Positions 2,219 through 11,657 of a stretch of 22,445 nt of DNA are shown one piece after another. The stretch's first letter is position 1; each line of letters begins with the position of its first letter. The notes under the pieces were generated by a model. That model saw only the letters and a program-made list of their open reading frames with translations, did no database searches and was not told the DNA's origin. The position numbers and the translations under genes were made by a program. This stretch comes from a virus: positions 1-22,445 of IMG/VR virus record IMGVR_UViG_3300028844_002925; one strand, written 5' to 3'.

Positions 2219-2542
2219 ATGGCTTTTTACATTAAGCAGAACGATACAGCACCGATTATTCTTGTAACCCTTAAAGACGGTAATGATGCTGTTGTGAGCC
2301 TTACTGGCGCAAGCGCTGTTTTTAAGATGCGGCCTGTTGGGCAAACTACGGTTAAAACAAACGCCGCCGCAATCATCCATAATGCAGATGGTGGTCAAGT
2401 TCGATATGAATGGGTCGCGGCTGATACGGATACGATAGGATCTTATGAGGCTGAGTTCCAAGTAACCTTTTCCGATGGAAAGATTGAAACATTCCCAAAT
2501 TCTGATTTTATCAGAATAACAGTAACGGATGATATATCATGA
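2219..2542 (+). CDS. BppU-like (DUF2479-type) N-terminal domain protein
   Basis: A 107-residue protein beginning MAFYIKQNDTAP, followed by LTGASAVFKMRP and a closing beta-rich IRITVTDD. This is the pattern of small phage proteins related to the N-terminal domain of baseplate upper protein BppU, often placed among head-tail joining genes. It probably folds as a small immunoglobulin-like beta sandwich that anchors an appendage to the virion. The start is supported by the GGA in taatggacgcagcg eight bases upstream. Its stop overlaps the next start as ATGA, so the two are probably translationally coupled. Role in the particle is inferred from context. Confidence 0.65.
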   Translation: MAFYIKQNDTAPIILVTLKDGNDAVVSLTGASAVFKMRPVGQTTVKTNAAAIIHNADGGQVRYEWVAADTDTIGSYEAEFQVTFSDGKIETFPNSDFIRITVTDDIS

Positions 2543-3246
2543 GTGGATTGACCGTAGCAGTAGAGCCAACCAGAGAGCCGCTAACCGTTATAGAAGTTAG
2601 GGACGCGTTAAGGCTTGACGATGATGTGGATGAAACTCTGGTTATGAGCTACATCATAGCCGCAAGGGAGTGGGCGGAGAACTACACGGGCCGCGCCCTT
2701 ATAACGCGCACTCTGCATCAGTTTATCGACGCATACGCAAGACTGCCCGACAATCTAACAGAGGGTTTTTATACGGGCGTTGAGCAAACGATACCGCAAA
2801 ACTACTTAGAGTTGGCTATATCTCCTGTCATATCTGTTTCGAGCGTTAGCTATTTTACGGATAGCGGGGTGGATGATCTAGAATATGCCGTTACCGTTGC
2901 GGGCGGGGTTTTCTACATAGATGGAACGGCGCAGCCTACTTTGACGCTCAAGCGCGGCTCAACGTATAGGTTTAAACAAGATGATAGTAGTAACTCAAAC
3001 CATCCCTTTCGGCTTTCTGCTACGGCAAACGGAACACATGGCGGCGGATCTGAATACACGACTGGCGTAACGACTAGCGGGACGGCGGGAAGCTCGGGAG
3101 CATACCTTGAGATAACCGTTTTGGAAGATGCGCCAGACGCGCTTTACTATTACTGCTCAAATCATAGCAATATGGGCGGGCGGCTCTTTAACGATCACAA
3201 ACCAAGACACAGAAGCCACATGGGCCGCGAAGAATTACTATGTTGA
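2539..3246 (+). CDS. Head-tail connector, N-terminal part, with inserted cupredoxin domain
   Basis: Residues 12-105 match the HK97 gp6-like/phiE125 gp8-like connector family (LTVIEVRDALRLDDD, then helices with AREWAENYTGRAL). Residues about 116-214 are an inserted beta domain, YAVTV to NMGG, of a kind seen in marine phage structural proteins. It carries a type 1 copper-like ligand set: H155 (NHPFRL), C206, H209 and M212 in YYYCSNHSNMGG. The C-x2-H-x2-M spacing is that of amicyanin. Right after NMGG the frame departs from the family, and the last 20 or so residues (RLFNDHKPRHRSHMGREELL) look like out-of-frame sequence. The rest of the connector continues in the +1 frame and is listed separately. 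Start is ATGA-coupled to the gene before. Confidence 0.75.
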   Translation: MSGLTVAVEPTREPLTVIEVRDALRLDDDVDETLVMSYIIAAREWAENYTGRALITRTLHQFIDAYARLPDNLTEGFYTGVEQTIPQNYLELAISPVISVSSVSYFTDSGVDDLEYAVTVAGGVFYIDGTAQPTLTLKRGSTYRFKQDDSSNSNHPFRLSATANGTHGGGSEYTTGVTTSGTAGSSGAYLEITVLEDAPDALYYYCSNHSNMGGRLFNDHKPRHRSHMGREELLC

Positions 3247-3553
3247 TAGTGTAAGGGAACCCGCTCGGATCTTGCTGCGTGACGCGGGGTCATTCCCCAC
3301 CGATTTGCGGGCCGCTAATGGCTTAAAGATAGTTTACACCGCTGGATACGGAACAACCACGCAAAGCGTCCCTGAGCCTATTAGGATCGCTATGATGCAG
3401 TATTGTGCTTTCTTATATGAGCATAGGGGCGACTTTGAACGGTTCCCACCACCAGTGCCGCCTAAAGTGTTGACCCAGCTATTGACGCCTTACATGATCA
3501 TGCGCTTTGGTTCGACGCCTTATCAGAATGTTATTCGGCAGGGGATTGGCTAA
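3128..3553 (+). CDS. Head-tail connector, C-terminal part (frame +1)
   Basis: This frame carries the missing end of the connector: SLTITNQDTEATWAAKNYYV, then EPARILLRDAGSFP, VYTAGYGTTTQSVPEPIRIA and a C-terminal helical part, all typical of the gp6-like family. Homology begins at about base 3181; residues encoded before that (MRQTRFTITAQ) look like an out-of-frame reading of the cupredoxin domain. Removing one G from the GGG at 3178-3180 would join the frames as NMGGG-SLTITNQ. It is thus either the second half of a gene broken by one inserted base, a +1 recoding product, or a sequence error. It ends directly before the head closure gene. Confidence 0.7.
   Translation: MRQTRFTITAQIIAIWAGGSLTITNQDTEATWAAKNYYVDSVREPARILLRDAGSFPTDLRAANGLKIVYTAGYGTTTQSVPEPIRIAMMQYCAFLYEHRGDFERFPPPVPPKVLTQLLTPYMIMRFGSTPYQNVIRQGIG
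3172..3190 (+). other. Apparent +1 frameshift site in connector gene
   Basis: In ATGGGCGGGCGGCTCTTTA the upstream frame reads M-G-G-R-L-F and drifts into non-family sequence, while the downstream family sequence is in the +1 frame. A one-base excess in the G-rich run is the simplest explanation; programmed +1 shifting cannot be excluded. Confidence 0.7.
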
Positions 3554-3901: not shown

Positions 3902-4386
3902 GCATTCGCGTAAAAGTAGAAGATAAGCCTAAATATAAAGTTGTTGAGGCTAACTATAGAAAGGCTATAGAGCGCATTATAGAAGATAAGCCTAAATATA
4001 AAGTTGTTGAGGCTAACTATAGAAAGGCTATAGAGCGCATTATTGTTTCTGGAGTTCAAAACACAATGAACACTGCAAAGCAAAGCATACAACAGCATGG
4101 AAGCAGCGGAAAAACCTACGAGAAGTATAGCCCGAGAAGAACGCATACTGCATCGTCCGCTGGAAATCCTCCAAATTCCGATACAGGTTTTTTAGTAAGC
4201 AATATTCATATGGAGATAGATGCTGACGGAATGGGCGGGTCTGTAGAAAGCCGTGCCGATTACTCTGGGTTTCTTGAGTTTGGCACAAGCAAGATGCAAG
4301 CTAGGCCATATCTGCAGCCCGCTCTTGAAGAGAATAGGCCAAAAATAAGATCAATGTTTACACGATTAAAGAATAGAGGTCTTTAA
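3898..4386 (+). CDS. HK97 gp10-like tail completion protein with internal duplication
   Basis: The 162-residue product has the gp10-family pattern: an N-terminal helix, a middle with SPRRTHTASSAGNPP and DTGFL, then YSGFLEFGTSKMQARPYLQPAL, the usual family signature (hxxFlEfGTskmxarPfl). It probably joins head and tail. Start is TTG, overlapping the previous TGA; no other start gives the full N-terminus. Residues 8-28 (EDKPKYKVVEANYRKAIERII) are repeated exactly at 29-49, lengthening the N-terminal helix by 21 residues. Without it the protein would be 141 residues, a usual family length. The duplicate is in frame, so the protein may still work. Confidence 0.8.
   Translation: MSIRVKVEDKPKYKVVEANYRKAIERIIEDKPKYKVVEANYRKAIERIIVSGVQNTMNTAKQSIQQHGSSGKTYEKYSPRRTHTASSAGNPPNSDTGFLVSNIHMEIDADGMGGSVESRADYSGFLEFGTSKMQARPYLQPALEENRPKIRSMFTRLKNRGL
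3917..4043 (+). repeat. Perfect 63-bp tandem duplication in gp10-like gene
   Basis: The block starting gaagataagcctaaatat is present twice with a 63-base period and no mismatch; period identity runs over 3917-4043. It keeps the frame and adds 21 residues. Absence of divergence implies a very recent slippage event or an assembly artefact. Confidence 0.95.
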
Positions 4387-4387
4387 G

Positions 4388-4795
4388 ATGGCTCTGCATT
4401 CTTGGAACCTACAAAAAGCAATATACGCAACGCTAAATAGCGCGACGATTACGGGGGCGTCAGTCGCGGATGTTCCCGTGTATGATGACGTTCCCGAGGG
4501 TACGTCCGCGCCATATATTGCGATAGGAGAAGAAACCGCTATAGATGCAGCGGTAAAAGACAAGGATGCACACGAGCATACCTTAACAGTTCATGTCTGG
4601 TCAGAGTATCGGGGCAGATATGAAATCAAGCACATTATGGAACAGGTCTATCAAAATCTCCATAATGCTGCTATAACCGTATCAGGCGCTTCTTTGGTGA
4701 ACCTACGAAATGAGTTCGTAACAACACTCCAAGAGGCCGATGGTATAACGAGGCACGGGGTCATGAGATTTCGCGCCGTAGTGTTTGACAGTTAA
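4388..4795 (+). CDS. DUF3168 tail terminator/tail completion protein
   Basis: A 135-residue protein with the DUF3168 (PF11367) layout: an N-terminal helix LQKAIYATLN, then VPVYDDVPEGTSAPYIAIGEE, a strand EHTLTVHVWSEYRGRYEIKHI and a C-terminal ITRHGVMRFRAVVFDS strand. The family relates to tail terminator proteins such as SPP1 gp17, which cap the tail tube at the head-proximal end. AGAGG lies about nine bases before the ATG. It sits between the gp10-like gene and the major tail protein, the standard siphovirus position. Confidence 0.85.
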   Translation: MALHSWNLQKAIYATLNSATITGASVADVPVYDDVPEGTSAPYIAIGEETAIDAAVKDKDAHEHTLTVHVWSEYRGRYEIKHIMEQVYQNLHNAAITVSGASLVNLRNEFVTTLQEADGITRHGVMRFRAVVFDS

Positions 4796-10467: not shown

Positions 10468-11106
10468 ATGACTTTAGCAATGGAAAAGCTACAGGAGCGC
10501 GTAGGAGTGGCTACAGACGGGTCTTTTGGCCCTAACACCGCACGAGCTATCACAAAGCACTTTGGCCTCTCTGCGGTGCGCTCTGCGCATCTCTTGGGGC
10601 AATCGTCACATGAGAGCGGCGGGTTTACCAAAGTTTGCGAAAGCTTGTATTATAGCTCTGCAGAAAGGCTGTGTAAGGTTTGGCCTCATAGGTTCAAGAC
10701 TGTAGAGGATGCAAGGCCATATGCTAGGAACCCTCGCGCTCTGGCAGAGAATGTATATCTCGACGCGAACCGTGGCAAAAGATACAAGCTCGGTAATGAA
10801 ACCCCGCAAGATGCCTCTACGTTTATCGGGCGCGGGTTTATACAGCTTACGGGAAAGAGTAACTATAGAAAGTTTGCCGCCGATATGGGACTGCCCGAGG
10901 TCATGACGGACCCCTCTCTAGTAGAAACAGACTACGCTTTTGAAACGGCTATGTGGTTCTTTGAGGCAAACAATCTATTCAAGCTTGCTGACCAAGGCGT
11001 CAACACCGAAACGATTGAGGCAATGACCAAGAAGGTTAACGGCGGCTTTAATGGCTTGCAGCATAGAATAGACGAGACAAACAAAATTTATGACTGGCTT
11101 ACTTAA
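10468..11106 (+). CDS. GH19 (chitinase-like) endolysin
   Basis: The 212-residue enzyme cleaves peptidoglycan during lysis. AGGAGG at 10457-10462 selects the ATG at 10468 (MTLAMEKLQERVGVA); a longer reading from 10426 overlaps the previous gene and is unlikely. Residues 8-27 look like a shortened peptidoglycan-binding repeat (LQERVGVATDGSFGPNTARA). The GH19 domain follows: HESGGF with catalytic E49, E58 in VCESLYY as probable second acid, and FIGRGFIQLTGKSNYRKF as the family core. No signal peptide, so export depends on a holin. It is the enzyme of the lysis cluster starting at 8510. Confidence 0.9.
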   Translation: MTLAMEKLQERVGVATDGSFGPNTARAITKHFGLSAVRSAHLLGQSSHESGGFTKVCESLYYSSAERLCKVWPHRFKTVEDARPYARNPRALAENVYLDANRGKRYKLGNETPQDASTFIGRGFIQLTGKSNYRKFAADMGLPEVMTDPSLVETDYAFETAMWFFEANNLFKLADQGVNTETIEAMTKKVNGGFNGLQHRIDETNKIYDWLT

Positions 11107-11657
11107 TGCCGTTCTTCGTAGAGATTGGATCTTGTGACTTTGACACCTGTCGGCCCCTTGTAGATCAGGGATGGTCTGGCGTTGTGGTCGAACCAAATCC
11201 AGAAATATTTAGCAAGGTTCAAAATGTGTTCAAAGGGACATCTGTGCAGTGTGTAAATTACGCTGTAACAGATAGAAATGAAGAGGTGGAAATAAAGCTT
11301 GCGACTGGTTGGGGTTGGGCGCGTGGGATAACGCACGTTGTGAGTGATCACCATATCGGCGCAAGATTGTCTGATGATCCTAAGAACGAAAACAATTTCG
11401 GCAAAACCGTATCTGTGCAGGGCATTACATTAGATAGCTTAATCTCGGTCTGTAATGTTTCTAAGATTGATTTCCTCAAGATAGATACTGAGGGCCATGA
11501 GATAAACATTTTGAACGGGTTTAACTTTTCAAGGGTCCGCCCCAAGTTTATCAAGATTGAACATAGACTGACTGATGATCAGAGGATCATGGAGAGGCTA
11601 GGTTTAGAAGGTTATCTCGCATGGGTGGAAGAGAACGACATTTACGCCGTTGGGTAG
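11106..11657 (+). CDS. FkbM-family methyltransferase
   Basis: A 183-residue FkbM-type (PF05050) SAM-dependent methyltransferase. The SAM site is visible as MPFFVEIGSCDFD (motif I), VVVEPNPEIF (motif II) and VNYAVTDRNEEV; the FkbM signature DFLKIDTEGHEINILNGF is intact. These enzymes usually methylate sugars or small molecules. It overlaps the endolysin stop (TAATG), so it is transcribed with the lysis genes, and is the last gene of the rightward operon. Possible roles are modification of virion or host surface glycans; no substrate can be read from sequence. Confidence 0.88.
   Translation: MPFFVEIGSCDFDTCRPLVDQGWSGVVVEPNPEIFSKVQNVFKGTSVQCVNYAVTDRNEEVEIKLATGWGWARGITHVVSDHHIGARLSDDPKNENNFGKTVSVQGITLDSLISVCNVSKIDFLKIDTEGHEINILNGFNFSRVRPKFIKIEHRLTDDQRIMERLGLEGYLAWVEENDIYAVG

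Follow-up and report, generated by a model that had tools for sequence, protein, structure and literature searches.

A predicted cupredoxin-like domain, inserted in a head-tail adaptor and mobile among virion proteins of marine phages, keeps a putative copper site

The adaptor (head-tail connector) gene of the virus record IMGVR_UViG_3300028844_002925 carries an additional domain. Its most likely role is that of a mobile module on the virion surface, which keeps a putative metal site and is used like the Ig-like/CBM decorations of phages. The record was analysed as one 22.4-kb stretch of DNA (the window), in which the adaptor gene spans positions 2539-3553; this gene with its domain and ligand codons and the tail terminator gene are on the + strand. 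Beta-sandwich decorations on phage particles are already known. If the present reading is true, a selected copper-type site in neck, tip and fibre proteins of ocean viruses would be a common and apparently undescribed virion function; among the open-licence papers searched, none was found that mentions cupredoxin together with phage tail fibres or virions.

The N-terminal half of the adaptor and the additional domain are encoded by an open reading frame of 235 residues (2539..3246) which ends at an out-of-frame stop and matches PF05135 (5e-5), phrog_442 (2e-8) and phrog_40. The C-terminal half (3176..3553) is found in another frame, matches the C-terminal part of phrog_442 (5.6e-7) and is 97% identical to L002. 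The gene adjoins the head-completion and tail-terminator genes, and the terminator of the window (4388..4795; PF11367, 6.6e-25) is free of the domain. A search for the window adaptor in 84,980 cellular genomes did not reveal the connector. The first-pass annotation had described a connector split by about 100 residues, and this is confirmed by the adaptor family matches on both flanks of the insert (PF05135/phrog_442 on the N side, phrog_442 on the C side) and by shorter, domain-free homologues. Intact adaptors measure 222-224 residues without the domain versus 336 with it. The closest empty adaptors (L084, L085, L087 and L088) have flanks very similar to those of the loaded ones, as in the empty site IKYY-ADDD-TETTWPSTNYYAD compared with the loaded IKYY-ND..domain..TDQD-TETVWPAKNYYVD. 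From these alignments, the insertion of the domain in an adaptor of the window type is virtually certain. Its absence from close relatives shows it to be dispensable, which counts against the explanation favoured here; such natural empty and loaded sister phages also lend themselves to simple comparisons. The insert had been placed at 2884-3180; it is indeed there, but the domain is wider and extends over about 2866-3204 (residues ~110-222 in the numbering of the in-frame relatives), its last strand lying past a break of the reading frame. Residues ~120-215 of the window adaptor match tail-fibre/baseplate families of marine phages (phrog_30742, 6e-23).

The full-length, in-frame L002 adaptor was modelled by AlphaFold2. 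The domain reached pLDDT values of 83-96, and the overall pLDDT of 72.9 and pTM of 0.51 make its placement against the adaptor body unreliable. Foldseek analysis of this model matched the domain to rusticyanin (E 3e-4), amicyanin (1.6e-3), AcoP and nitrous oxide reductase, and the body to the GTA adaptor. In VIA alignments, residues 109-222 gave Z scores of about 7-8.5 (~8 for rusticyanin) and rmsd values of 2.4-3.3 A with nitrite reductase, laccase, rusticyanin, auracyanin, plastocyanin and a Nitrosopumilus cupredoxin; amicyanin, though found by Foldseek, was not among the best 50 VIA matches. Those of the listed VIA matches which are confined to the domain are all cupredoxin folds. The remainder of the adaptor model matches the fold of the RcGTA adaptor (Rcc01688, PDB 6toa/6te8; VIA Z 11.6) and of HK97-type adaptors, whose genes likewise neighbour those for head completion and the tail terminator; the inserted domain is missing from the solved adaptors to which it was matched. 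Residues 110-214 of the window, modelled alone by AlphaFold2, gave a pLDDT of 90.6. This domain-only model lacks the last strand and gave weaker comparisons: the best Foldseek match, to a different protein, had an E of 0.03, and VIA Z scores did not exceed 7.2. In the window domain model His155 is located just before a strand and Cys206 at a strand end, and Met103 of the model (M212) aligns with Met148 of rusticyanin and Met171 of AcoP, judged by the ends of the aligned ranges; each of these two methionines is given as the mutated residue in structure entry titles. The His155 and C206-x2-H209-x2-M212 set with amicyanin spacing, which the first-pass annotation had pointed out, is encoded in the 2539-3246 frame, and in the predicted structure it follows the canonical order and strand positions of type 1 copper. 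A fold placing these residues apart had been named as the observation that would speak against the proposal; their register in the AlphaFold2 model is canonical, a statement which concerns register only. As a Z score near 8 is middling by itself, the cupredoxin argument is based on the consistency of the family and on the ligand register. On these models, the amicyanin-like cupredoxin fold proposed earlier is retained as very probably correct. The predicted domain resembles amicyanin, rusticyanin and plastocyanin, with His and Cys-x2-His-x2-Met at the same topological places and the loop spacing of amicyanin; these proteins are free periplasmic electron carriers, whereas the phage domain is an insert in a virion protein.

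Solved cupredoxins have no significant sequence similarity to the phage domain. A PDB sequence search with the domain or its profile gave no significant cupredoxin and only antibodies (E 0.07-0.5), while PF00127 Copper-bind matched two relatives end to end at E ~0.09, below the cut-off. The antibody matches are in agreement with an Ig V-set-type domain, as annotated in P-HM1 ("contains PF07686") and MED4-213. This assignment is nevertheless very improbable and was rejected as a weaker structural match than the cupredoxins: with the complete domain, Foldseek lists cupredoxins from 3e-4 and a first antibody at E 5e-3 with an rmsd of ~14, no antibody is present among the best 50 VIA matches, and in place of two core cysteines the domain has a single conserved Cys, located in the CxxHxxM motif.

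The first-pass annotation did not mention that the reading frame of the window copy is broken. Around 3175-3186, just past M212 and ahead of the last strand of the domain, the window contains 4 bases more than L123, L124 and L002 in a GGGCGGGC direct repeat, and this last strand and the C-terminal half of the adaptor are out of frame. The window adaptor has no single intact frame, and those of L002, L123 and L124 are in frame. In all likelihood, the window gene is a pseudogene or an assembly error which codes for no complete adaptor as written, a conclusion compatible with the favoured explanation. The absence of the 4-base excess from the nearest relatives argues for it, as does a second anomaly ~0.75 kb downstream, a perfect 63-bp tandem duplication (3917-4043) in an HK97-gp10-like tail gene, which repeats 21 residues and is single in L124. 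This duplication is either recent or an assembly artefact, and it makes assembly trouble in this stretch plausible. On the other side, programmed or corrected frameshifting could still apply to the window record, and another loaded adaptor, that of L152, is likewise broken at a different place. Programmed frameshifting as the normal route to the adaptor was rejected, since some 20 loaded relatives have an unbroken frame and no exact copy of the window junction was found in viral contigs. Frame breaks were also observed at unrelated places in two other connector genes (L152:2501-3419 and L147:2501-3065).

The first-pass annotation regarded the domain as an unusual single case; it is instead a widespread mobile module of neck, tail-tip and fibre proteins. 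Among contigs in which both neck genes are visible, the domain is in the adaptor with an empty terminator in 21 (the window included), in the terminator with an empty adaptor in 5, in neither in 37 and in both in 0, the last count being a weak statistic due to near-copies and shared ancestry among the contigs. In the five contigs with a loaded terminator (L032/L082, L083, L086, L089 and L142), the domain is near the N-terminus, between an N-terminal segment and the YDDVPE strand (L086:3953-4702, L142:3950-4699, L083:2721-3494, L089:2025-2774 and L032:2869-3465). Contigs of 44-47 kb contain the domain once (L133, adaptor; L142, terminator) or not at all (L097, L105 and L125). In the L100 contig, its carrier matches fn3 and, weakly, Phage-tail_3; this protein is probably the tail tip and would be the sole tail-tip case among sister phages with an empty adaptor. 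With L156:2-1897, a probable tail tip matching fn3 and bearing the domain, the module has a third site within this phage group. On an adaptor tree computed without the insert, the adaptor insertion and the terminator insertion each require two changes of state. In the domain tree, which has few columns and support from SH-aLRT alone, the adaptor copies join the terminator copies of L086, L089 and L142 (SH-aLRT 94), and those of L032 and L083 are located elsewhere, amid fibre-type domains. On these trees, the domain would need to have reached the terminator independently at least twice, and one move perhaps took place between terminator and adaptor. The module is present in non-homologous structural proteins and missing from close relatives, as expected for a mobile decoration, and the proteins which bear it (adaptor, terminator, tail tip and fibres) are virion proteins reaching the exterior. 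Cultured phages with the domain in a virion protein include S-TIM5 and Pelagibacter phage Baldr.

The Ig-like and carbohydrate-binding decorations of phage virions, for example the neck and tail CBMs of 936 lactococcal phages, are likewise dispensable, horizontally shuffled beta-sandwich add-ons, found in the neck as well. The CBMs of 936 phages bind host cells (PMC6669499). In contrast to these decorations, the present domain has a conserved metal-ligand set, and its insertion site is a loop within the ring proteins.

The earlier proposal was to be abandoned if close homologues had lost Cys, His or Met. All four ligands, H155 (3001..3003), C206 (3154..3156), H209 (3163..3165) and M212, the predicted axial ligand (3172..3174), are present in 81/81 close copies from viral contigs, a sample chosen partly via the ligand motifs. 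A fairer test is given by 23 named phages collected by whole-domain tblastn at about 34-68% identity, of which 20 keep all four. Taken individually, each ligand is conserved in 21/23 named phages (with one Gln at the Met position). The copies from cellular genomes keep all four in 36 of 38 cases, one having Gln; the individual counts are 37/38 for H155, 38/38 for C206, 37/38 for H209 and 36/38 for M212 (one Gln). The exceptions are either Met-to-Gln replacement, as in P-RSM6, or joint loss of several ligands, as in the baseplate-wedge-annotated copies of PSS2 (L168) and S-P4 (L224). Gln also takes the place of the Met ligand in stellacyanin. The codons of the His and Cys ligands show synonymous changes only, TGT alternating with TGC and CAT with CAC, and pN/pS is 0.20 for the domain versus 0.21 and 0.16 for the adaptor halves. 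At the sequence level, the conservation of the four ligands is far beyond chance. H167 (3037..3039), a nearby conserved histidine outside the ligand set, is present in 10/23 named and 26/38 cellular copies; it was rejected as a fifth ligand, since more than half of the named phages lack it and S-P4 retains it despite the loss of C, H and M.

These data suggest that the domain of the intact relatives binds copper, a prediction which we hold to be somewhat better than even. The cupredoxin fold could also be a protein- or glycan-binding decoration only, whose ligands serve folding or occasional metal stabilisation and whose copper has no working role. The pattern of use, similar to that of the Ig-like/CBM decorations, and the persistence of the PSS2 and S-P4 copies without most of their ligands are compatible with such a role; it appears rather unlikely, since few residues are conserved as well as the ligands down to about 34% identity and ligand loss is coupled, with no drift.

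The explanation which we moderately favour as a whole is a mobile cupredoxin-like module which would gain copper outside the cytoplasm and bind at the particle surface. In marine phages, members of this domain family are placed in the tail fibres, the baseplate, the tail tip, the tail terminator or the adaptor. From the GTA and R4C structures, the adaptor insert should be present in 12 copies facing outward at the neck rim; as it sits in the corresponding beta-region of the adaptor, up to 12 modules would be expected to form a ring on the outside. Roseophage R4C shares this neck layout and has an Ig-like domain for attachment (PMC10276861). Phage assembly takes place in a copper-poor cytoplasm, which counts against the favoured explanation, as do the lack of a significant sequence match to a solved cupredoxin, the weaker matches of the domain-only model and the broken frame of the window copy. 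The domain probably folds there metal-free, and copper would be taken up after lysis or at the host envelope. The module would then bind at the particle surface, attaching with low affinity to the surface of the host or to a partner in its envelope, and the copper site would either stabilise the binding face or be part of the contact. An adhesion-type use of the domain is put forward tentatively. In an unlikely, stronger version, true type 1 copper centres would encircle the neck, up to 12 of them with the adaptor or 6 with the terminator; their loading with copper would control a step of infection, for instance attachment to a host envelope partner or stabilisation or triggering of the neck, and selection would have repeatedly placed the module in the neck and tail proteins which display it.

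In SAR86, SAR92, OM182 and Marine Group II contigs, the domain is found near the C-terminus of proteins with a lipoprotein-type N-terminus, judged by eye (e.g. ...LSGCMGSDD or ...IAGCGGGG), which indicates that the family is also used at cell envelopes. Some cellular relatives thus combine a lipoprotein-like appearance with conserved ligands. Other cellular matches look like the phage proteins and may stem from prophages or viruses. Lipoprotein-like carriers were observed in L175, L177, L178, L192, L205 and L207 (Marine Group II, SAR86/SAR92), some of them also with collagen-like repeats, cadherin-like or PEBP domains. The resemblance of some cellular relatives to envelope lipoproteins would fit a "Trojan horse" in which the copper of the particle draws a host metal-uptake system or supplies copper, an idea taken by analogy from the hypothesis on iron-binding HxH tail fibres (PMC11705849). 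Such fibres (T4 gp37, R22Y) likewise bear a metal-binding motif on a virion surface protein, but their metal, fold and ligands are different. This metal scavenging is quite improbable, as no receptor is known and the neck lies at a distance from where the particle first makes contact.

Upstream of the neck genes, the window codes for a 2OG-Fe(II) oxygenase (103-633; PF13640, phrog_61). Between this gene and the neck genes, positions 667-2166 encode a 499-residue protein made of repeats of ~23 residues (TGAPxV...IxQxHxL) with no convincing family match. Further downstream, an FkbM-type methyltransferase gene (11106-11657; PF05050, 8e-21) directly follows a chitinase-class (GH19) lysis-type gene.
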